Assembly (NCBI RefSeq): GCF_001570605.1
Contig: NZ_BBXG01000008.1
Location: forward strand, 62,001 to 126,000
Reading direction: 5' to 3'
DNA length: 64,000 nucleotides
From: Herbidospora cretacea
GTDB taxonomy: Bacteria; Actinomycetota; Actinomycetes; Streptosporangiales; Streptosporangiaceae
The translations under genes and the position numbers were made by a program. Position 1 is the first letter of the stretch, and the number at the start of each line of letters is the position of its first letter. The notes beneath the pieces were generated by a model. The model was given only the letters and a program-made list of their open reading frames with translations, did not search any database and was not told where the DNA came from. Positions 14,419 to 23,943 of this stretch are shown here, in pieces.

Positions 14419-16521
14419 GTGCGGCGGTGGGCTGCGGGGATGGTCACGGCCATAGTGGTCACGCTCGCGTGGGGGGCGCCGGCGGCGGCCCGGACCTCGG
14501 CTCCGGGACAGGTGGCGCTCGTCGGGGTGCCCGGCCTGATGTGGACCGACGTCACCGAGGGTGACACCCCGAATCTCTGGCGGCTGGCCGGTGAGAGCGC
14601 CGTCGGGTCGCTGTCGGTCAAGTCCGTTGGCACGATCACCTGCCCCTACGACGGCTGGCTGACGGTCTCGGCCGGGGTGCGGTCGGCCGTCGGGCAGCGG
14701 TGCGGGCTGCCGCCCGAGCCGGTCGAGGGCACCAACATGCTCCACGAGTTCGGCTGGTTCGCCTCGGTCGCCGGGGTGCCGACCGCCGGATCGGTCGGAG
14801 CGGCAGGCGGCACGATGGCGGTCGGCCCCGGCGGGGTGCTCGCGCTGTCGGACGAGAACGGGGCCGTCGGCCGCTACCACGCCACGATCGACGAGGTCAC
14901 CGACTGGTCGGCGCCCGTCATCGCGGTCGACGTCGACGTGCTGATCCGGCCCTACATCGCCGCCGACGGGAAGGTCTCCCGCGACCCCGAATCGGTCGCC
15001 CCGGCCGTCCGGGCGGCGGCGGTCCGGCAGGCCGACGCGCAGGTGGGCGCGGTGCTGGCCAAGCTGCCGCCGAGCACGACCGTGCTGGTGGCCGGGCTCG
15101 CCGACCACGGGTCGGTCCCCCATCTGCGGGTGGCGATGATGCGCGCGCCGGGGACGACCGGCACCAGCCTGCTCGGATCGGGCTCGACCCACCGCGACGA
15201 CATGATCATCCTGCCCGACCTGACCGCGACGCTGTTCAGCGCGGCCGGGCAGGCCGCCGCCACCCCGCCGACCGTCATCGGCCAGCCGCTCAGGGTGGGC
15301 GACCCGATCCCCCGGGAGGAGGCCCTCGAACGCCTCCGCGACGCCGACACCGCCGGGCAGACGATCCGGAACATGGGCGGGATCTTCTTCACCGCGCTGG
15401 CCGTGCTCCAGGTGCTCTTCTACGTCGCGGCGTTCCTGCTGCTGCGCCGCCGCTCGGCGCTCGGGACGGTCAGGGTGGCCGCCGTGGCGCTGGCGTCGAT
15501 CCCGGTGTCGACCTACCTGATCAACCTCACGCCGTGGGAGGCGAGCCCCGCGCCCACGCTGACCCTGGTCGGCGGGCTGGCCGCCTGCGTCGTCGTGCTG
15601 GCCGTGCTCGCGCTGCGGGCGGCCCGGCTCACCAGGCCCGAGAACATCCTCGCGCCGCTCCTGGTCGTCGCGGGCGTCACCGCCGCCGTGCTGCTGGGCG
15701 ACCTCCTCTCCGGCACGCATCTGCAGCTCAACAGCGTGATGGGCTACACCGGCGTGGTCGGCGCCCGCTACTACGGCCTGGGCAACATCCCGTTCGCGCT
15801 GCTGGCCACGGCCGTGCTGCTGGTCGCCACCGGCGTGGCCGACACGCTGGTCCGGCACGGCCGCCGGTCGATCGCGGTCGCCCTGATCGCCGGGCTCGGG
15901 GTGTTCGCGATGATCCTCGGCGGCTGGCCCGGGGTCGGCAGCGACTTCGGCGGCGTGATCGCGTTCGTGCCCGGCATCGCGGTCGCGGCGCTCATCGTGG
16001 CCGGGCGGCGGGTGTCGGTCTGGAAGCTCGGCCTGTTCTGCGTGGCGGGCGGCGTGATCGTGCTGTCCATCGCCTACCTCGACTACCGCCGCCCGCCCGG
16101 GTCGCAGACCCACCTCGGGCGGTTCGTCGGGCAGATCTTCGACGGCACGTTCTGGCCGGTCATCGCGCGCAAGCTCGACGCCATGCTGGGCACGCTGCTG
16201 TCCCCCAACCTGATGCCGGTCGTCATCGCGGCGGTGGCGTTCCTGGTGTTCGCGGTGCTGCGGCCCGACCAGGCGACGGCCGGGGTGCTGCCGGTGGCGT
16301 TCGAGCGGGCGCCCATGCTGAAGGCCGGCCTGCTCGGCGCGCTGGTCAGCGGCGGCGTCGGCATGCTGGTCAACGACTCGGGCGCGGCCGTCCTGTCGAT
16401 GGCGCTGGCGCTGGCCGTGCCGCTGGTGCTGAGCGCCGGGATCCGGGCGATCCAGCTCGACGGCGGGTCAGCCGACGGCGGCCGTCCGCAGGGCGCGGTA
16501 AAGCAGACGCGCGTCGCCTAG
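14419..16521 (+). CDS. Polytopic membrane protein with N-terminal alkaline-phosphatase-like domain
   Basis: 700-residue protein. After a signal/anchor (about residues 1-25), residues 30-300 look like an extracytoplasmic alkaline phosphatase superfamily domain: VALVGVPGLMWTDV...TPNLWRLA resembles the metal- and nucleophile-bearing N-terminus of that fold, and LVAGLADHGSVPHL resembles its later metal-binding motif. From about 320 onward there are ten or more transmembrane segments. The start GTG 14419 is preceded by GAGGGGGA. The substrate is unknown; a cell-envelope phospho-substrate is a guess. Its 3' end overlaps the converging NurA-like gene by 54 bases. Confidence 0.68.
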   Translation: MRRWAAGMVTAIVVTLAWGAPAAARTSAPGQVALVGVPGLMWTDVTEGDTPNLWRLAGESAVGSLSVKSVGTITCPYDGWLTVSAGVRSAVGQRCGLPPEPVEGTNMLHEFGWFASVAGVPTAGSVGAAGGTMAVGPGGVLALSDENGAVGRYHATIDEVTDWSAPVIAVDVDVLIRPYIAADGKVSRDPESVAPAVRAAAVRQADAQVGAVLAKLPPSTTVLVAGLADHGSVPHLRVAMMRAPGTTGTSLLGSGSTHRDDMIILPDLTATLFSAAGQAAATPPTVIGQPLRVGDPIPREEALERLRDADTAGQTIRNMGGIFFTALAVLQVLFYVAAFLLLRRRSALGTVRVAAVALASIPVSTYLINLTPWEASPAPTLTLVGGLAACVVVLAVLALRAARLTRPENILAPLLVVAGVTAAVLLGDLLSGTHLQLNSVMGYTGVVGARYYGLGNIPFALLATAVLLVATGVADTLVRHGRRSIAVALIAGLGVFAMILGGWPGVGSDFGGVIAFVPGIAVAALIVAGRRVSVWKLGLFCVAGGVIVLSIAYLDYRRPPGSQTHLGRFVGQIFDGTFWPVIARKLDAMLGTLLSPNLMPVVIAAVAFLVFAVLRPDQATAGVLPVAFERAPMLKAGLLGALVSGGVGMLVNDSGAAVLSMALALAVPLVLSAGIRAIQLDGGSADGGRPQGAVKQTRVA

Positions 16522-17424
16522 CCGGTGGCGCAGCAGCTTCTCCAGCCCGCCGATCGGGACGAGGTTCTGCGGCGCCCTCGGGTCCTTGTAGTCGACCCCG
16601 GCGATCGGCGGCAGCGCCACCGTGACCTGGTCGGCCAGCGCGACGGCCTCCTCGACCGACAGCTCGGCGCCCGCCTCGCACCGGGCGATCCCGGCCCACG
16701 GCGCGGCAGAGACGGTGGGGAGCCGCAGATACCAGGCGTAGCGGCTCCAGTTCGTGCCCATGAAGAAGACCGGCGTCCGCTGGCCCGGCTTGAGGTCGGA
16801 CACCACCGCCGACTGGGCCGGCGGCAGGTAGGACGTGTGGTGGGTCTTCACGTAGCCGACCGCGTGGTGGAGGTGGGTGCGCCCCCGCAGCGGCCCGTCG
16901 ACCAGCAGCAGCTCGTCGTGGCCGGTGCCCGACCGGTAGTCGCGGACCGTGTCGACCTCCAGCTCGGTCAGCTTCTGCTGGAGCGCCAGTGACCCGTCGT
17001 CGTCGCCGGTCACTTCGAAGGCCGTGTACGTGACCGGCCCCGCCACCAGGTCGGCGACCCCTTTGGCCGGGCTGAACACCCCTCTCATGACCTCGACGGC
17101 CACCGGCTCGGCCCCCTGCTCGCCGCACCGGACGATCCCGGCGGCGTAGGAGGCCGCGATGCCGGGCGCGGGCATGCCGCCCTGCGGGTCGTCGACCCAG
17201 ACCCGGGCGTCGATCCGCCGGACGCCGTCGGCGATCAGCAGCGTGTCGGGCGCCTTCGCCGAGGAGCACGGCGTGATCGGCCGCCACTGCGGGATCGGGA
17301 TCTCGATGTCGAGCGTGAGGGCGGCGGAGCTGCCCTCCATCTCTGCCTCGAAGGCCAGGCTGGCGCCGTAGCCGGGGTCCCAGGGATCGACGCTGAACCC
17401 GGGGGCGTGGAACGTGGTGGTCAC
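16468..17424 (-). CDS. nurA: NurA-like nuclease
   Basis: 318-residue cytoplasmic protein with NurA-family features: TLLIADGVRRIDARVW, where the Asp is the expected metal ligand, LLLVDGPLRGR with a second Asp, the VGYVKTHHTSYLPP segment, and a C-terminal LEKLLRHRLGDARLLYR helix. NurA is a 5'-3' exonuclease/endonuclease that works with the HerA hexamer. The start GTG 17424 overlaps the SbcC stop as GTGA, implying coupled translation. Gene context (herA, mre11, rad50 immediately upstream) matches the archaeal resection operon and supports the call. The family assignment rests on motif reading, not on a profile search. Confidence 0.72.
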   Translation of the reverse strand: MTTTFHAPGFSVDPWDPGYGASLAFEAEMEGSSAALTLDIEIPIPQWRPITPCSSAKAPDTLLIADGVRRIDARVWVDDPQGGMPAPGIAASYAAGIVRCGEQGAEPVAVEVMRGVFSPAKGVADLVAGPVTYTAFEVTGDDDGSLALQQKLTELEVDTVRDYRSGTGHDELLLVDGPLRGRTHLHHAVGYVKTHHTSYLPPAQSAVVSDLKPGQRTPVFFMGTNWSRYAWYLRLPTVSAAPWAGIARCEAGAELSVEEAVALADQVTVALPPIAGVDYKDPRAPQNLVPIGGLEKLLRHRLGDARLLYRALRTAAVG

Positions 17425-19886
17425 CGAACCACCTTTCTGACGTGGGAGCCGGAGGCGTCGCGGGAGACCTCGAACCGGACCGGGACCCGGTCGGCCAGAG
17501 CCGGAACGTGGGTGACGACGCCGATCATGCGTTCGTGGCCGGAGGCGAGCCGTTCGAGGGTGGCGGCCACCATGTCGAGCGTGGCCGGGTCGAGGGTGCC
17601 GAAGCCCTCGTCGAGGAAGATCGAGTCGAGGCTGCGGGCCGCAGCGGCGGCCAGGCCCGCGACCTGGTCGGACAGGGCCAGCGCGAGGGCCAGGGAGGCC
17701 TGGAAGGTCTCGCCGCCGGACAGGGTCCGGGCGCTGCGGCGCAGCCCCGCCTCGGCGTAGTCGACGACCTCGATGTCGCCCCGGCCGCCCAGCACGAGTT
17801 CGTACTGACCGTCGGAGAGGTCTTTCAGGGTCTCCGACGCGGCGGCCACGAGCAGTTCGAGGGCCTCGGCGCAGAGCCAGCGCTCGAACTGGTTGGCCCG
17901 CAGCAGCAGGGCGAGTTCGTGGGCGACCCTGGCCTCGCTCTCGTGCGCCGCGACGCGTCCGGCCAGGTCGGCGGCGCGTTCACGGGCCTCCTGGACCCGG
18001 GCGAGCCGCTCGTCGGCCTGGGCGGCGGCGCGGGCGACCAGCTCGGCGACCTTGGTCGGCGCGGTCTTCTCCGTGATGTCCACCCCGTGGGCCCTGGTCA
18101 GGTCGGCCAGCGCCCGGCGGGCCTCCAGCGCGTCGCGTTCGGCCCGCTCGAAGCGGGCGTCGGCGGCCCGCGCGTCGGCGCGCTGACCGTCGGCGGTCCG
18201 GTCGCGCCAGGTGAGCAGGACGGTCCAGGCGGCGTGGACGTCTCCGGGGTCGAGCGGCGGCGGGCCGAAGGCGGACACGGTGTCGCGGGCGGTGTTCAGG
18301 TCGCGCCACGCCTGGTCGGTCTTGCGCCTGGCCTCGTCGACGGCGCGGGCGGCCTGGGTGGCGACGCGGCGGGCCTCGCGGGCCTCACGGCGGGCTGTCG
18401 CCACCCGTCGCGCGGTCTCGTCGATCCGCGCGAGCAGCGCCTCGATCGCGGCGGCCCGATCGGGGTCGGGCGGCGCGGTCGCGGCCAGGTCGAGAGCGCG
18501 GGCGGTGAGCACTTCGGCCTTGGCGGCGAGCCCGTCGTGGCGGGTGCGGGCCTGCTGCCCCTTCTCACGGACGGCGGCGAGGCGGCGTTCGGCGGCGGCC
18601 AGCGCCTCCGGCCCCGGACCTTGACGGAAGGCGTGCGCATGGCGGTCGTCCCGCCTGTCCGCGGGCAGGACGGGGACGACCTGGTGGCAGACCGGGCACG
18701 GGTCGCCCTGGACCAGGGTGCGGGCCAGGTCGGCCGCGGCATGGGCGATCCGCGCCTCGGTCAGGTCGCGGTCGGCCTCCTCGTAGTCGCGGAAGGCCTG
18801 GGCGAGCTCCTCGGCGGCCTTGGCCAGATCGCCCTCGACGCCGTCGGCCTCCCGCTGGGCCTCGACGGCCTCGGCGGTGCGGCGCGCGCGGTCGGTCAGG
18901 TCGGCCAGCTCGCGAAGGAGCGAGGCCCGGTCGCCCAGCGCGTCGAGGTCGCCGTCGGCCTTCTCCTCCAGCGCGTCGAGGCGGGCCTGCTCCGCCGCCG
19001 CGGCCTCGGCCTGTTCCCCGGCCCGGCGAGCCGACTCGGCCAGACCGCGCACCTCACCGGGGAGCGCGAGCGCACCGAGCAGGGTGAGGGCACGGACCAG
19101 CGCCGACCGTTCCTCCTCCGCGCTCTTCGCCGTCTCGTCGAGGACCCTCAGCCTCTCCAGGTCGGCGCCCACCCGTTCGGACAGGTCGCGCAGGGCGGCC
19201 ACCCTCGCCCGGGCGATCTCCTCGGCCTTCTCGTCGGCGTCGCGGAGGCGGGCCAGCTCTCCCCTGGCGAACTCGGCGGCCTGGTTCTGCCGGGTCTCCT
19301 CGACGACCGCGGCCTTGCGGACCTGCTCGTAGACGTCGGCGTCGAGGAGCTGGACCAGCAGGTCCTGGCGGTCGCTGGGGGTGGCGTGGAGGAACTCGGC
19401 GAAGCGGCCCTGGGGCAGCACGACGCACTGCGTGAAGAACTTGTATTCGAGCCCGGTGACCTTGGTGACCTCGGCGGCGACCTGTTCGCCCTCGGCCACC
19501 GGCTGGGAGGTCCCGGTCAGCGCGAGCAGGTCGGAGGCGGCCGGTATCGACGGGTCGAGCAGGTCGAGCCGGGCCTCCTTGGTGCGGACGGTGCCCTTGG
19601 CGTCGCGGAGCAGGGTCCGGACAGCGGCGTAGCGGCGGCCGGAGACCTCGAAGACCAGGGCCACCTTGCCCGAGGTCGCGGAGGGCGCCAGCGCGTGGGC
19701 GACGACGTTCTCCTTGCCCCACCGGGGCACGCTGCCGTAGAGGGCGAAGCAGACGGCGTCGATGACGGTGCTCTTGCCCGCGCCGGTCGCGCCGACCAGC
19801 GCGAAGTAGTCGACCTCCGCGAAGTCGACCTCGGTGGCGGCCCGGAAGCTGCCGAAGTTCTCCATGTGGAGCCGGATCGGGCGCAT
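17421..19886 (-). CDS. sbcC: SbcC/Rad50-type SMC-like ATPase
   Basis: 821-residue ATPase that partners Mre11/SbcD at DNA ends. The N-terminal Walker A is GATGAGKST, followed by IDAVCFALYGSVPRWG. Long Arg/Glu/Ala-rich coiled coils flank a zinc hook, CPVC, near residue 395. The C-terminal lobe has the signature LSGGETFQASLALALALSDQ and Walker B LDSIFLDEGFGTLD. At 821 residues it is shorter than E. coli SbcC, so the coiled coils are short. The start ATG 19886 follows GGAGGTGGG. It begins 19 bases after sbcD and overlaps the NurA-like gene. Confidence 0.93.
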   Translation of the reverse strand: MRPIRLHMENFGSFRAATEVDFAEVDYFALVGATGAGKSTVIDAVCFALYGSVPRWGKENVVAHALAPSATSGKVALVFEVSGRRYAAVRTLLRDAKGTVRTKEARLDLLDPSIPAASDLLALTGTSQPVAEGEQVAAEVTKVTGLEYKFFTQCVVLPQGRFAEFLHATPSDRQDLLVQLLDADVYEQVRKAAVVEETRQNQAAEFARGELARLRDADEKAEEIARARVAALRDLSERVGADLERLRVLDETAKSAEEERSALVRALTLLGALALPGEVRGLAESARRAGEQAEAAAAEQARLDALEEKADGDLDALGDRASLLRELADLTDRARRTAEAVEAQREADGVEGDLAKAAEELAQAFRDYEEADRDLTEARIAHAAADLARTLVQGDPCPVCHQVVPVLPADRRDDRHAHAFRQGPGPEALAAAERRLAAVREKGQQARTRHDGLAAKAEVLTARALDLAATAPPDPDRAAAIEALLARIDETARRVATARREAREARRVATQAARAVDEARRKTDQAWRDLNTARDTVSAFGPPPLDPGDVHAAWTVLLTWRDRTADGQRADARAADARFERAERDALEARRALADLTRAHGVDITEKTAPTKVAELVARAAAQADERLARVQEARERAADLAGRVAAHESEARVAHELALLLRANQFERWLCAEALELLVAAASETLKDLSDGQYELVLGGRGDIEVVDYAEAGLRRSARTLSGGETFQASLALALALSDQVAGLAAAAARSLDSIFLDEGFGTLDPATLDMVAATLERLASGHERMIGVVTHVPALADRVPVRFEVSRDASGSHVRKVVR

Positions 19887-19905
19887 CAGGAACCCACCTC
19901 CGCGG

Positions 19906-21057
19906 TCATGAGCGCGTCACCTCGTCGTGCAGGCGGTCGAAGAGAGCGCCCAGGGCCTCGACGTCCTTGCCGGAGGCGGTCAGGTATTCGCGGACCAGGT
20001 CACGCGGCCCCCGGCCGGCGCCCGTGGCCTGCCGTCGGCGCACGCTCGCGGGCCGGAAGTCGGGGTGCAGGTCGACCTGGAGCGCTCCGGGAAGCAGCTC
20101 CCGCACCGTGTCGGCCAGGCCCGCCCGGGGTTTCTCGGCCACGATCACTCTCAGCCAGGCGTCGCCCAGGTCGGCGGCCATCGCCTCCAGGCGCTCCAGG
20201 CTGCCGGTGACCGTCGTGAGCACCTTCGGCTTCTCCAGCGCGACCTCGCGGACCTGGGCCGGCGCGCCGGGCGAGACCTCGACGACCAAGACGCCCGGCT
20301 GGTTCTTCTCCTCGCCGAAGTCGACCGCGAGGGGCGAGCCGCTGTACCAGATCGGGCACGGCCCCGGCATCTGCTGGCGGCGGTGCAGGTGGCCCAGCGC
20401 GGCGTACTGGACCGTCGGGGGGAAGGCGGTCGACTCGAAGTAGTAGGAGAAGATCGTCTGGGCCTGGCGTTCGCCGCCGCCCATCTTCCCGCCCGGCAGG
20501 GTGCCGTGGGTGGTCACCAGGTTGATGGTGTCGCCGGTGAAGCCGCCGGTCAGCGCCTCGGCGAGGCGGCCGAAGCGGTCGGCGTAGCTGCGGTTGTGCT
20601 CGGCGGCCGTCTCGGTGATCAGCTCGGCGGCCCGGACGACGTGGCGGTGGGACAGGAACGGCAGCACGGCGCACTTGACCGGCTCGCCGGTCCGGGCGGT
20701 GAACTCGATCAGCCCGCCCTGGTCGGGCCGCCGGAACAGCCCCGACACGTGGATGCCGAGCGCCCCCAGCACCGGCCGGTAGACCTCCAGGAGCTGCGCG
20801 TTGTCGTGGTTGCCGGCCAGCACGACCACCTCGCGGCCGCCCTCCCGCAACTGCATCAGCGCGTTGACGACCAGACCCTGCGACTCGGGCGTGGGGGCCG
20901 AGGTGTCGAAGAGGTCGCCCGCGACCAGCACCAGGTCGACGTCTTCCCGGCGGGCCACGCCCACGAGCTCCCAGAGCACCGCGCGGTGTTCGTCGTGGCG
21001 CCCCCGGCCCTTGAGGACCTTGCCGACGTGCCAGTCGGCCGTGTGCAGGATCTTCAT
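19906..21057 (-). CDS. sbcD: SbcD/Mre11-type nuclease
   Basis: 383-residue metallophosphoesterase nuclease that forms a complex with SbcC. All phosphodiesterase motifs are present: HTADWHVGK (Asp and His at the N-terminus), LVAGDLFD, VLAGNHDN, VTTHGTLPG and YAALGHLHRRQ. The C-terminal part holds the capping and SbcC-binding regions. The start is ATG 21057. Nine bases separate it from herA and 19 from sbcC. Expected activities are 3'-5' exonuclease and endonuclease on DNA ends or hairpins, powered by the SbcC ATPase. Confidence 0.94.
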   Translation of the reverse strand: MKILHTADWHVGKVLKGRGRHDEHRAVLWELVGVARREDVDLVLVAGDLFDTSAPTPESQGLVVNALMQLREGGREVVVLAGNHDNAQLLEVYRPVLGALGIHVSGLFRRPDQGGLIEFTARTGEPVKCAVLPFLSHRHVVRAAELITETAAEHNRSYADRFGRLAEALTGGFTGDTINLVTTHGTLPGGKMGGGERQAQTIFSYYFESTAFPPTVQYAALGHLHRRQQMPGPCPIWYSGSPLAVDFGEEKNQPGVLVVEVSPGAPAQVREVALEKPKVLTTVTGSLERLEAMAADLGDAWLRVIVAEKPRAGLADTVRELLPGALQVDLHPDFRPASVRRRQATGAGRGPRDLVREYLTASGKDVEALGALFDRLHDEVTRS

Positions 21058-21066
21058 GGACGCCTT

Positions 21067-22815
21067 TCAGAATGGGGGAACGTCGTCTTCGGGGGCGGGC
21101 AGCCCGGCGAACGGGTCGTGCGCCGCGATCGACGCCGGGGACGAGACGGGGGCCGCCCCGGCCTCGGAGGGCCGGGTGGCCCAGGCCGGGAACGGGAAGT
21201 TGACGGCCAGCGGGACGGGGATCTCCGGCTGCACCACGAACATGGTGCCCGGCTTGGCGATGGTGGCCCGGTCGCGGGCGGTGCCCGTCAGCCAGCCGTA
21301 TTCGGACCTGGTGGCCTCGGCCGGGTCGAGCCTTCCCGCGACCCGGACGGCGCAGTTGGCCACGATACGCCGCTCCACCTCGGAGGCGGTCTGCTGGGCG
21401 CCGATCAGGATGACGCCGAGCGAGCGGCCGCGCTCGGCCACGTCGAGCAGGATCTCCTTGATCGGGGAGTCGCCGTCGCGGGGGGCGTACTTGTTGAGCT
21501 CGTCGAGGACCACGAACAGCAGCGGCCGGGCCGAGCCCGACAGCTCCTTGCGGGCGAACTCGCCGCGCAGCACGACGCCGACGACGAACCGCTGGGCGCG
21601 CTCGGGCAGGTTGTGCAGGTCGACGATGGTCACCTGGGCGTCGGAGACGCCGATCGAGTGGGGCCGCCCGGCCGGCAGGTCGCCGCGCACGATCGGGGTG
21701 AGCGACCTGATCGAGCTGCGCAGCCGCCGCAGGAACGCGTTGATCGTGCCGAGCGGCGTCGGGAAGCCCGTCCAGGTGGCCCGGGTCGACTCGTCGGCCA
21801 GCCGCTCGTCGATCAGGTCGACGAGCTGGGGGTAGGTGCGGCACTCGGCGTCGTCGACCTTGACCGCCCCCGAGGAGCCGAGCGGCTCGGCGAGCAGTTT
21901 CAGCCGGGCCGCGATCTGGCCGATCAGCAGGTTGTACTGCGACTTCTCGTCGTCGGCGTCGGCGAACACGTAGCGCAGGAGCTCGTTGTCGCAGAACTCG
22001 GCCAGGGTCCAGTAGAAGGAGCTGACGCCCTTGGTCCGGGCCGTGACGTGGGGCACGCCGTGGACGTCGCCGGGCCTCGGCGGCGCGAACACGTGGACGC
22101 TCCGGAACGCCTGCGCGGGCAGCCCGAGCGTGGCGTAGCCGGAGCGGGCGTGGTCGTCGACGCGGGTGTTGGCGTGGTCGAGGAACAGCAGGTCCTCGCC
22201 CTTGACCGAGAAGATCAGCGCCTTGGTGTTGGCCGCCTCGGCGCCCAGCACCCCGGAGTTGAACACCGAGTAGAGCAGGAACGTCGCGAACGAGGTCTTG
22301 GTCGCCACCCCGGACACCCCGGAGATCGACACGTGGGCGCCGCGGGTGCCGTCGAGGAAGTCGAAGTTCAGGTAGGCGGCCTCGCCGTCGCGCCCGATGC
22401 CCATCGGCACCCGCCGCTCCATCACGTCGAAATAGAGCGCCTGGTCGCGGTCGGCCCCCTTCGCCCGGAACGCCGGGGCCCCCGGCAGCGGCGGCACGAA
22501 CACCTCGGGCTCCACCCGGGTGACCCGCACCTCCGCGACCTCGACGACGGCGGCGGGCAGCGACCCCCCGGCGATCAGGAACACGTCGGAGTCGTAGGCG
22601 GCCCCCTCGTGGCGGGCCTCGACGTGGGTGACCACCCCCGCGACCAGCACCGTGCCGTGGCCGGGCACCTCGCGCCGCGTCACCACCACCTCGTCGAGCT
22701 GCACGACCTTCCCCGGCTCCAGGCCGATCCAGAACGACAGGGGCGAGGCCGACTGTGTGCCGAGCACACGGCCGACAGCCTCGCCAGCAGGGGCACCAGA
22801 GAACCCATCCGTCAC
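21067..22815 (-). CDS. herA: HerA-like hexameric DNA-translocating ATPase
   Basis: 582-residue ATPase of the HerA/FtsK superfamily. The N-terminal HAS-barrel (about 1-110) includes GRVLGTQSASPLSFWIGLEP and VLVAGVVTHVEAR. The RecA-like core has a variant Walker A, SGVSGVATKTSFATFLL, near residue 168, a Walker B, LLFVVLDELNKYAP, near 438, and the downstream GAQQTASEVERRIVANCAVR sensor segment typical of HerA. The start is GTG 22815. It directly precedes sbcD and lies 21 bases after the HIT gene. HerA pumps DNA to NurA during end resection in archaea, and the same partner genes are next to it here. Its motif variant should be checked against bacterial HerA proteins. Confidence 0.85.
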   Translation of the reverse strand: MTDGFSGAPAGEAVGRVLGTQSASPLSFWIGLEPGKVVQLDEVVVTRREVPGHGTVLVAGVVTHVEARHEGAAYDSDVFLIAGGSLPAAVVEVAEVRVTRVEPEVFVPPLPGAPAFRAKGADRDQALYFDVMERRVPMGIGRDGEAAYLNFDFLDGTRGAHVSISGVSGVATKTSFATFLLYSVFNSGVLGAEAANTKALIFSVKGEDLLFLDHANTRVDDHARSGYATLGLPAQAFRSVHVFAPPRPGDVHGVPHVTARTKGVSSFYWTLAEFCDNELLRYVFADADDEKSQYNLLIGQIAARLKLLAEPLGSSGAVKVDDAECRTYPQLVDLIDERLADESTRATWTGFPTPLGTINAFLRRLRSSIRSLTPIVRGDLPAGRPHSIGVSDAQVTIVDLHNLPERAQRFVVGVVLRGEFARKELSGSARPLLFVVLDELNKYAPRDGDSPIKEILLDVAERGRSLGVILIGAQQTASEVERRIVANCAVRVAGRLDPAEATRSEYGWLTGTARDRATIAKPGTMFVVQPEIPVPLAVNFPFPAWATRPSEAGAAPVSSPASIAAHDPFAGLPAPEDDVPPF

Positions 22816-22836: not shown

Positions 22837-23364
22837 TTACGACGTTTTCTCAGGCCATGCCTGGGCGAGCAAGTCACGGGTGTCCCGGAGCAACTGTGGT
22901 AGAACGCGCGTGAGCCCCACGACGGGCATGAAGTTCGTGTCACCGCCCCAACGGGGCACGACGTGCTGGTGGAGGTGGGCGGCGATGCCCGCCCCGGCGA
23001 CCGTCCCGAGGTTCATCCCGACGTTGAACCCCTGCGCGCCGCTGGCGTCGCGGAGGCTGGTGAGGGCCTTCTGGGTGAAGCCGGCCAGTTCGGCGGTCTC
23101 GGCGGTGTCGAGGTCGGTGTAGTCGGAGACGTGCCGGTAGGGACAGACCATCAGGTGGCCGGAGTTGTAGGGGTAGAGGTTCAGGACCGCGTACACGACC
23201 TCGCCCCGGGCCACGATCAGCCCGTCGGCGTCGTCCATCTTCGGGATCTCGCAGAACGGGCACCCGTCACCGGCGCCCGGACCGGTCGGCTTGTTCTCTC
23301 CCTTGATGTACGCCATCCGGTGCGGCGTCCAGAGCCGTCCGAAAGCGTCGGGCACGTCTGTCAT
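22837..23364 (-). CDS. HIT-family hydrolase (AP4A phosphorylase/hydrolase type)
   Basis: 175-residue histidine-triad protein closely resembling mycobacterial Rv2613c: LWTPHRMAYIKGE, CPFCEIP, YAVLNLYPYNSGHLMVCPYRH and the triad HLHQHVVPRWGGD. Such enzymes split dinucleoside polyphosphates such as AP4A. The start ATG 23364 (MTDVPDAF) is preferred; ATG 23376 would add four residues. In mycobacteria the gene lies between thrS and pgsA, whereas here it is followed at 21 bases by herA and is probably co-transcribed with the repair genes. The two Cys in CPFC may bind zinc. Confidence 0.88.
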   Translation of the reverse strand: MTDVPDAFGRLWTPHRMAYIKGENKPTGPGAGDGCPFCEIPKMDDADGLIVARGEVVYAVLNLYPYNSGHLMVCPYRHVSDYTDLDTAETAELAGFTQKALTSLRDASGAQGFNVGMNLGTVAGAGIAAHLHQHVVPRWGGDTNFMPVVGLTRVLPQLLRDTRDLLAQAWPEKTS

Positions 23365-23382
23365 GTCGGCCAGCATATGGGG

Positions 23383-23414
23383 GACCCGCCGGCGATACCC
23401 CCGCCGACCGGGTC
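23383..23414. promoter_or_regulatory. Hairpin/inverted repeat between HIT and Asp23 genes
   Basis: GACCCG (23383-23388) pairs with CGGGTC (23409-23414), and inner CGGCG pairs with CGCCG. It lies in the divergent promoter region of the HIT and Asp23 genes. It may be an operator or a leader hairpin of the HIT-herA transcript. Confidence 0.25.
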
Positions 23415-23475
23415 TAACGCCGGACAAACCCTTCGATCTTCCGGCAGAATCCTGCTGACCTGAGGAGATGATCGT

Positions 23476-23943
23476 GTGACCGACGTCGCGTACGAGCACC
23501 AGAACGAGTCCCCCTCCGCGGAGTCCGAGGGAGAGGCCCCCCAGGAGCCGCAGATCTCCGTCGCGGGCCTCAAGGGCAAGATCACCGTCGCCGACGAGGT
23601 CGTCGAGAAGGTGACCGCCCTGGCCGCCAGGCAGGTCCCCGGCGTCGCCGACCTCGGCGGCGACCTGGCCCGGATCTTCGAGTCGGCCCGCAACACCATC
23701 GGCCTCGGCAGCAAGCGCGCCAGCCAGGGCGTCCGCGCCGAGATCCAGGACGGCATGGTCGCCATCGACATCACGATCGTCATCGTCTACGGACACGTGG
23801 TGATGGAGGTCGCGGCGGAGGTGCAGTCGAGCGTGGCCACCTCGGTGTCGCAGATGCTCGGGATGGAGGTCGTCGAGGTCAACGTGACCGTCGACGACGT
23901 CCGCCTCCCGGGCGAGGCCAAGCCGGGCGAAGCCGCCGCCTGA
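23476..23943 (+). CDS. Asp23/Gls24-family envelope stress response protein
   Basis: 155-residue protein. An acidic, disordered N-terminal 25 residues is followed by the Asp23/Gls24 domain: GKITVADEVVEKVTALAARQVPGVADLGG, VRAEIQDGMVAIDITIVIVYG and VSQMLGMEVVEVNVTVDDV. The start GTG 23476 follows GAGGAG. Members are membrane-associated scaffolds linked to envelope or alkaline stress; no membrane segment is present here. Many actinobacteria have several copies in clusters, but here it is single. It is separated from the converging DUF1996 gene by a strong terminator. Confidence 0.9.
   Translation: MTDVAYEHQNESPSAESEGEAPQEPQISVAGLKGKITVADEVVEKVTALAARQVPGVADLGGDLARIFESARNTIGLGSKRASQGVRAEIQDGMVAIDITIVIVYGHVVMEVAAEVQSSVATSVSQMLGMEVVEVNVTVDDVRLPGEAKPGEAAA

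Follow-up and report, generated by a model that had tools for sequence, protein, structure and literature searches.

A herA-sbcD-sbcC-nurA operon with an SSB-like tip on HerA in Herbidospora cretacea, a probable DNA-end processing unit

A 64,000-nucleotide stretch of the Herbidospora cretacea genome (the window; positions 62001-126000 of contig C8, in a genome of 8,280,334 bases and 36 contigs) carries the genes herA, sbcD, sbcC and nurA, in this order, on its minus strand. The analysis makes it probable that they form a bacterial DNA-end processing operon, consisting of a NurA-HerA resection motor with an SbcCD of its own, which would dock on partners of the single-stranded DNA-binding protein (SSB) such as RecO. 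The gene families, the NurA fold, the catalytic residues, the linkage, the joint presence and absence of the genes and the conservation of an SSB-type tip at the end of HerA were observed directly. The gene layout proposed by the first-pass annotation was confirmed from the open frames, with spacings of 9 and 19 bases and with sbcC and nurA overlapping by GTGA. The four frames are not chance, because each has database or structure relatives. They belong to the same four families as the archaeal DNA end-resection operon, as had been claimed; all four identities were supported, including the NurA fold and catalytic residues. Both the families and the idea of such an operon were known before, also for bacteria. 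Searches of open-licence papers showed no earlier report of such a unit with a dedicated SbcCD in actinobacteria, or of an SSB-type tip on HerA.

NurA, HerA and the C-terminal tip

When the 318-residue product of the last gene was searched with phmmer against the sequences of solved structures, it matched Deinococcus radiodurans NurA (DrNurA) at 2e-20 and Thermotoga maritima TM1739 at 0.03. The AlphaFold2 model, built from a 30-sequence alignment, had a predicted local distance difference test (pLDDT) score of 88.6, and its closest fold in Foldseek was DrNurA (7f6d_G, 1.3e-17, template modelling score 0.70). TM1739 (1zup) was matched at 2.6e-14, and the match to Sulfolobus NurA (2ygk) was remote (3.5e-6). 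D53 is a catalytic site of DrNurA, and mutant data are given for D53, K201 and R309 (PMC9960219; this and the other papers cited here are cited from excerpts). Under an inferred offset of 20 between the numbering of the chain and that of the paper, these residues align with D66, K193 and R283, which were invariant in all 30 sequences, the window included. W15, E41, E156 and D176 were likewise invariant in this alignment. A Pfam search at E≤1, and NCBIfam and PADLOC searches at E≤0.1, gave no family for the protein. NurAs from a cyanobacterial plasmid and a Streptomyces plasmid were also without a Pfam family at E≤0.001, and the curated models are therefore taken to miss this branch. Judged by alignment and predicted fold, the product of the last gene is a genuine NurA; the first-pass annotation had made this assignment depend on the fold and on a conserved catalytic Asp, and both were found.

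HerA matched the D. radiodurans protein (DrHerA) at 3.8e-137 over residues 5-553. The functional residues described for DrHerA are K175 and T176 (Walker A), K217, D220, D487 and E488 (Walker B), R513, the pore residue R552, R495 and R154 (PMC9960219). The equivalents of the first eight were invariant in 16 of 16 aligned HerAs, the window included, with K173 and T174 standing for the Walker A pair, and that of R495 was kept in at least 90% of them. The first-pass annotation had singled out the Walker A text GVSGVATKTS as a variant. The text is present, but it is no oddity within the family, since DrHerA has GISGVATKTS at the same position. DrHerA is an enzyme of published ATPase activity (PMC9960219), and the reading of this motif as a degenerate ATPase was rejected. 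The D. radiodurans NurA-HerA complex (PDB 7f6d, 7wrw, 7wrx) thus shares with the window the HerA subfamily, the Walker A motif and the catalytic D, K and R of NurA, and it provides the closest NurA fold.

The end of HerA was compared in 96 rows, comprising the HerAs of 80 named loci (the best 80 of 546 HerA relatives, a set that leans to close kin), that of the window and those of 15 further class-level loci; species may repeat among them. The C-terminus was PF in all 96 rows, at least two acidic residues stood within the six residues ahead of it in 94, and D occupied position -5 in 91. Of the 80 named loci, 41 had exactly DDDIPF as the last six residues of HerA, and DDDIPF is the tip of E. 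coli SSB (PMC5872125). No SSB-type ending was found in 66 NurA, 67 SbcC and 78 SbcD sequences. The HerA tail was 29 to 60 residues long past WATR and carried a DPF-like motif in its linker in 95 of the 96 rows. In the window protein, residues 554-582 were predicted to be disordered in a single-chain AlphaFold2 model. As in the SSB C-terminus, an acidic-PF hexapeptide closes a disordered linker at the extreme end of the protein. That of SSB sits on an OB-fold (oligonucleotide/oligosaccharide-binding) protein that binds single-stranded DNA, whereas the tip in the window sits on a DNA motor.

The first-pass annotation had not pointed out this tip. Within the host genome, HerA ends in EDDVPPF and the main SSB in SDEPPF; the tip is absent from the two other SSB-family frames. 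When the genome was searched with tip patterns followed by TAA or TGA stops, [DE][DE]xPF-stop matched only SSB and [DE][DE]xPPF-stop only HerA, and the reversed controls gave 0 matches. Among 30 SSB loci that were read, 25 ended in two acidic residues and PPF or alike, one (L183) in DKPPF, and four (L160, L177, L182 and L184) had no such tail, or the wrong frame was read. Many SSB linkers at the loci L155-L184 have a DDPWA or DDPW motif ahead of the tip, which resembles the DPFA of the HerA tail. Within one genus, HerA and SSB do not have exactly the same tip letters, and no coupling of letters is therefore claimed. D. radiodurans HerA could be read to four residues short of its C-terminus (...DDLGGKAAAEVGA, ...AAAEVGA), and probes carrying a DDIPF ending were not extended; as far as the protein is readable, this argues against a tip. 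E. coli RecO binds the SSB tip (PMC7913777), and by analogy the tip of HerA suggests docking to proteins that bind the SSB tip, such as RecO. Of 15 genomes searched for RecO_N, 14 had it.

Linkage, gene order and the SbcCD of the operon

All four genes were present in the same order in 67 of the 80 named loci. Eleven others end within 3 kb past herA, with sbcD and sbcC seen and nurA not, and one ends 63 bases past herA. In seven Glycomyces loci (L018, L019, L021, L022, L028, L055 and L079) sbcC and nurA were separated by approximately 0.5-2.7 kb of additional DNA, which may hold an extra gene.

In a phylum-wide sample of 346 genomes, 72 had NurA, 72 had HerA at E≤1e-80 (hereafter strong HerA) and 70 had both. 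This threshold dropped 50 of the 122 genomes with a HerA match at E≤0.001. The 50 comprised 29 members of one family (f19), whose HerA-like frame is divergent (1e-17 to 1e-26), a single genome at 1.3e-29 (G275) and 20 matches weaker than 1e-9, mostly long frames taken as FtsK-type. Among the 74 genomes with a strong herA or a nurA, herA, sbcD and nurA lay on the same contig in the same direction in 60. The order was nurA-herA-sbcD in 38 and herA-sbcD-nurA in 22, and in the remaining 14 the genes were split between contigs or a piece was missing. There are therefore two gene orders, with nurA first or last around a herA-sbcD core. The genes are thus linked in related genomes, as the first-pass annotation had required of its operon. 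Its view that such linkage is unusual in bacteria was rejected, in the light of these counts and of a precedent in Oceanithermus, where hepA (herA) is followed by sbcD and sbcC (PMC5448004) and a bacterial HerA is likewise linked to SbcCD. Three genomes of family f19 (G053, G065 and G011) showed a weak SbcD match near the divergent HerA-like frame (E approximately 1e-22 to 1e-26), and G053 and G065 also a weak NurA match; these genomes suggest that the cluster has a third branch, a divergent one.

Of 296 genomes sampled across the class, 17 had strong HerA; among the 28 listed members of the host's family there were 3 such genomes. Here the same threshold dropped 80 of 97 genomes, the best of them at 1.1e-9.

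The operon SbcD scored 170.2 bits against the NCBIfam sbcd model (TIGR00619), above the cut-off of 77.65. SbcC was above the Pfam cut-offs for AAA_23 and SbcC_Walker_B, and its score of 234.6 bits with NCBIfam sbcc was below the cut-off of 478.5. SbcC is short, with 821 residues in the window and 806-833 in 60 of 67 sequences of at least 700 residues, and 66 of these 67 have a CPxC zinc hook. In Sulfolobus, herA, mre11, rad50 and nurA lie in one operon (PMC4351679). The window has the same four families, but its SbcD and SbcC scored highest with bacterial SbcCD models, and the archaeal operon is therefore a parallel and not a shown source. The two also differ in that the operon is essential in Sulfolobus and patchy here. 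We take the D. radiodurans nurA-herA operon to be without SbcCD. In the excerpt of PMC12977600, this species is described as lacking Mre11-Rad50.

The host carries a second, housekeeping SbcCD on contig C3 (locus L217), which rules out the operon pair as its sole SbcCD. The operon SbcD scored 197 bits against the SbcD of a cyanobacterial-plasmid operon compared to 81 bits against the ordinary SbcD of the host. That plasmid copy (L188) differs in having nurA first (nurA-herA-sbcD-sbcC) and in its HerA, which ends in IEADIDRF without a tip. Another host locus (L222) contains an adjacent pair of UvrD-helicase/PD-(D/E)XK proteins with AdnAB-like architecture, which we presume to be AdnAB. When the ordinary SbcD was used as query in 39 genomes, the operon SbcD was found in none of the 25 HerA-negative members of the host's family, each of which gave one SbcD match (21 strong, 4 weak at 1e-6 to 1e-8), and both SbcDs were found in all 3 HerA-positive members. 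Both were also present in 7 of 11 other HerA-positive genomes; in the remaining 4, those of loci L021, L048, L066 and L080 (Glycomyces, Micromonospora, Actinoplanes and Pseudonocardia), only the operon copy was read. These findings show that in the host's family the operon SbcD is present or absent together with HerA and is additional to the housekeeping SbcCD. In many deep-branching genomes with all candidates scored, the operon SbcD was the sole SbcD matched, and it therefore looks like housekeeping there. Pairwise distances of the four proteins correlated at r 0.92-0.975 over 66 sets, a result that shared descent alone could yield.

Layout of the locus

The features of the operon are given in Table 1. 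The nearest named relatives, among the best 80 of 546, are from Herbidospora species, with a HerA identity of 93-94%.

Table 1. Operon genes and functional sites, in window coordinates
Feature	Position	Strand	Basis
herA, hexameric FtsK/HerA-type DNA translocase, bacterial NurA-partner subfamily, 582 residues	22815-21067	-	phmmer; 16-sequence alignment (window and 15 relatives); AlphaFold2 model, pLDDT 78.4
sbcD, Mre11-type nuclease subunit, operon subtype, 383 residues	21057-19906	-	NCBIfam sbcd; SbcD chain 4lty, 2e-27
sbcC, Rad50-type ATPase, short coiled coil, operon subtype, 821 residues	19886-17421	-	Pfam AAA_23, SbcC_Walker_B; SbcC chain 6s6v, 2.3e-38
nurA, RNase H-like nuclease, 318 residues	17424-16468	-	phmmer, AlphaFold2, Foldseek
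HerA Walker A GVSGVATKTS, residues 166-175	22291..22320	-	D. radiodurans HerA alignment
HerA SSB-type acidic C-terminal tip DDVPPF, residues 577-582	21070..21087	-	closes the tail predicted to be disordered (554-582)
SbcC zinc-hook motif CPVC	18687..18698	-	read from sequence
NurA D66, catalytic Asp, equivalent of DrNurA D53	17227..17229	-	alignment
NurA K193, equivalent of DrNurA K201	16846..16848	-	alignment
NurA R283, equivalent of DrNurA R309	16576..16578	-	alignment

Upstream of herA on the same strand lies a frame with the motif HLHQHVVP (22837-23796), which on this motif we take to be a HIT-type hydrolase. It stops 21 bases before herA, and the transcript may therefore extend further. 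This stretch was matched in only 6 of the 80 named loci (4 Herbidospora, 2 Acrocarpospora); some of the 80 end early.

Proposed function and competing explanations

Repair is the favored function, with defense still a serious rival, and the "complete resection machine" of the first-pass annotation is a good inference. SbcCD, of the Mre11-Rad50 type, would nick and clear blocked double-strand ends. The HerA hexamer would next pump duplex DNA into the NurA dimer, which would digest chiefly the 5' strand and leave a 3' single strand for RecA. Degradation of the 5' tail accompanies translocation in DrNurA-HerA (PMC9960219), and the same strand action may be expected here because the key residues are conserved. 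The HerA ring would recruit SSB-docking proteins, with RecO as the prime candidate, and would thereby couple resection to RecA loading; recruitment is proposed because the six disordered tails of the ring would all end in copies of the SSB tip. In the host, the operon would be accessory, bringing an SbcCD of its own in addition to the housekeeping SbcCD and the AdnAB-like pair. The enzymatic action, strand polarity, tip partner and biological role given here are what we infer from the observed features.

Several results weigh against this reading. Most sampled members of the host's family have no HerA and live without the unit. In one metagenome-assembled locus (L020, 9941-17838), a tipped herA is followed by approximately 6 kb without sbcD, sbcC or nurA; it is a solitary herA or an assembly artefact. 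The equivalent of R154, which acts on the neighboring subunit in DrHerA, is not conserved and is D152 in the window HerA. RecO_N was not found in one tip-bearing genome (G086) of the 15 searched. In the phylum sample, only 12 of 69 HerA tails ended in PF with an acidic residue within five, and only 8 had two or more, under a loose rule with the two-acid count made by eye and with L108, G114 and G267 left out; therefore the core machine does not need the tip. Ten of the 12 tipped genomes had the order herA-sbcD-nurA, the other two (G097 and G183) had nurA on another contig, and no tip was found in the 41 nurA-first genomes that were read (of 43). From these tails we read the tip as a probable later addition in part of the tree. 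The published biochemistry and genetics also give pause. DrNurA-HerA resection was weak in vitro, and D. radiodurans without nurA-herA was more tolerant of high mitomycin C and high-dose UV (PMC9960219). In Thermococcus kodakarensis, both strands are cut by HerA-NurA, and the authors of that study question whether it has a role in resection (PMC12977600).

The unit might alternatively be a genome-defense module, in which HerA-NurA and SbcCD would degrade invading phage or plasmid DNA like other HerA-nuclease pairs and repair would be secondary; we consider this somewhat unlikely. The patchy presence of strong HerA in the class and in the host's family fits defense as well as repair, and copies of the unit lie on the cyanobacterial plasmid L188, which was typed as conjugative, and on a linear plasmid of Streptomyces. 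On the latter (L187, NZ_CP134205.1, 1-15740), herA-sbcD-sbcC-nurA, its nurA recognized by eye, has as neighbors the Wadjet-type genes JetA and JetB and an ImmA/IrrE peptidase, and its HerA ends in IDEPPY. When the four operon proteins were scanned with PADLOC, the top matches were MADS components (SbcC to mad3 at 6.6e-24, HerA to mad8 at 1.2e-8), and the operon may be distantly akin to MADS. The NurA model also matched one chain of TdpAB, a defense system, in Foldseek (3.6e-4). Sir2-HerA, DUF4297-HerA, TdpAB and MADS share the HerA-type motor with the operon, but the likeness is of single domains only. An antiviral role has been proposed for archaeal HerA-NurA (PMC12977600). Against defense, the NCBIfam anti-phage HerA models scored 16.2 bits (NF042944, cut-off 850) and 12.1 bits (NF042943, cut-off 800), no Sir2 or DUF4297 partner was present among the four genes, and the NurA, as noted above, had no PADLOC match. 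The sole-copy, housekeeping-like status of the operon SbcD in many deep-branching genomes also speaks against defense.

A rather unlikely explanation, which concerns the tip only and fits either function, is that PF has a structural role, clasping parts of the HerA ring together or HerA to NurA. The C-terminal protrusion of Sulfolobus HerA embraces the adjacent protomer (PMC9960219), the upstream DPF motif is common to tipped and many untipped HerAs, and the tip letters are not those of the SSB of the same genus. A clasp agrees less well with a tail of variable length that is predicted to be disordered, albeit as a single chain, and with the exact E. coli SSB tip in about half of the named loci. 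It is very improbable that the operon is a redundant relic kept by drift or by selfish spread with little activity. The host does have a housekeeping SbcCD and an AdnAB-like pair, and one metagenome-like assembly (G114) has its HerA broken up over several frames, but the catalytic residues of NurA and HerA are invariant, and open frames and linkage have been kept over deep divergence.

The probable reading of the operon as a DNA-end processing unit leads to a more tentative one, with the balance somewhat against it. HerA of Actinomycetes would be a motor with an SSB docking tip, whose six-tailed ring passes the 3' strand to RecO or another SSB partner and loads RecA, and the unit would spread through bacteria as a cassette together with a dedicated SbcCD subtype. 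If true, this would be a counterpart, by tail mimicry, of the built-in RecA loading of RecBCD. The role of bacterial NurA-HerA is uncertain and controversial according to the D. radiodurans authors (PMC9960219), and the connection of SbcCD with HerA-NurA in Deinococcus was left open in the excerpt of PMC4663267. The findings presented here provide a lineage in which SbcCD and HerA-NurA come and go jointly, and an SSB-type tip that is a clue to the docking partner of HerA.

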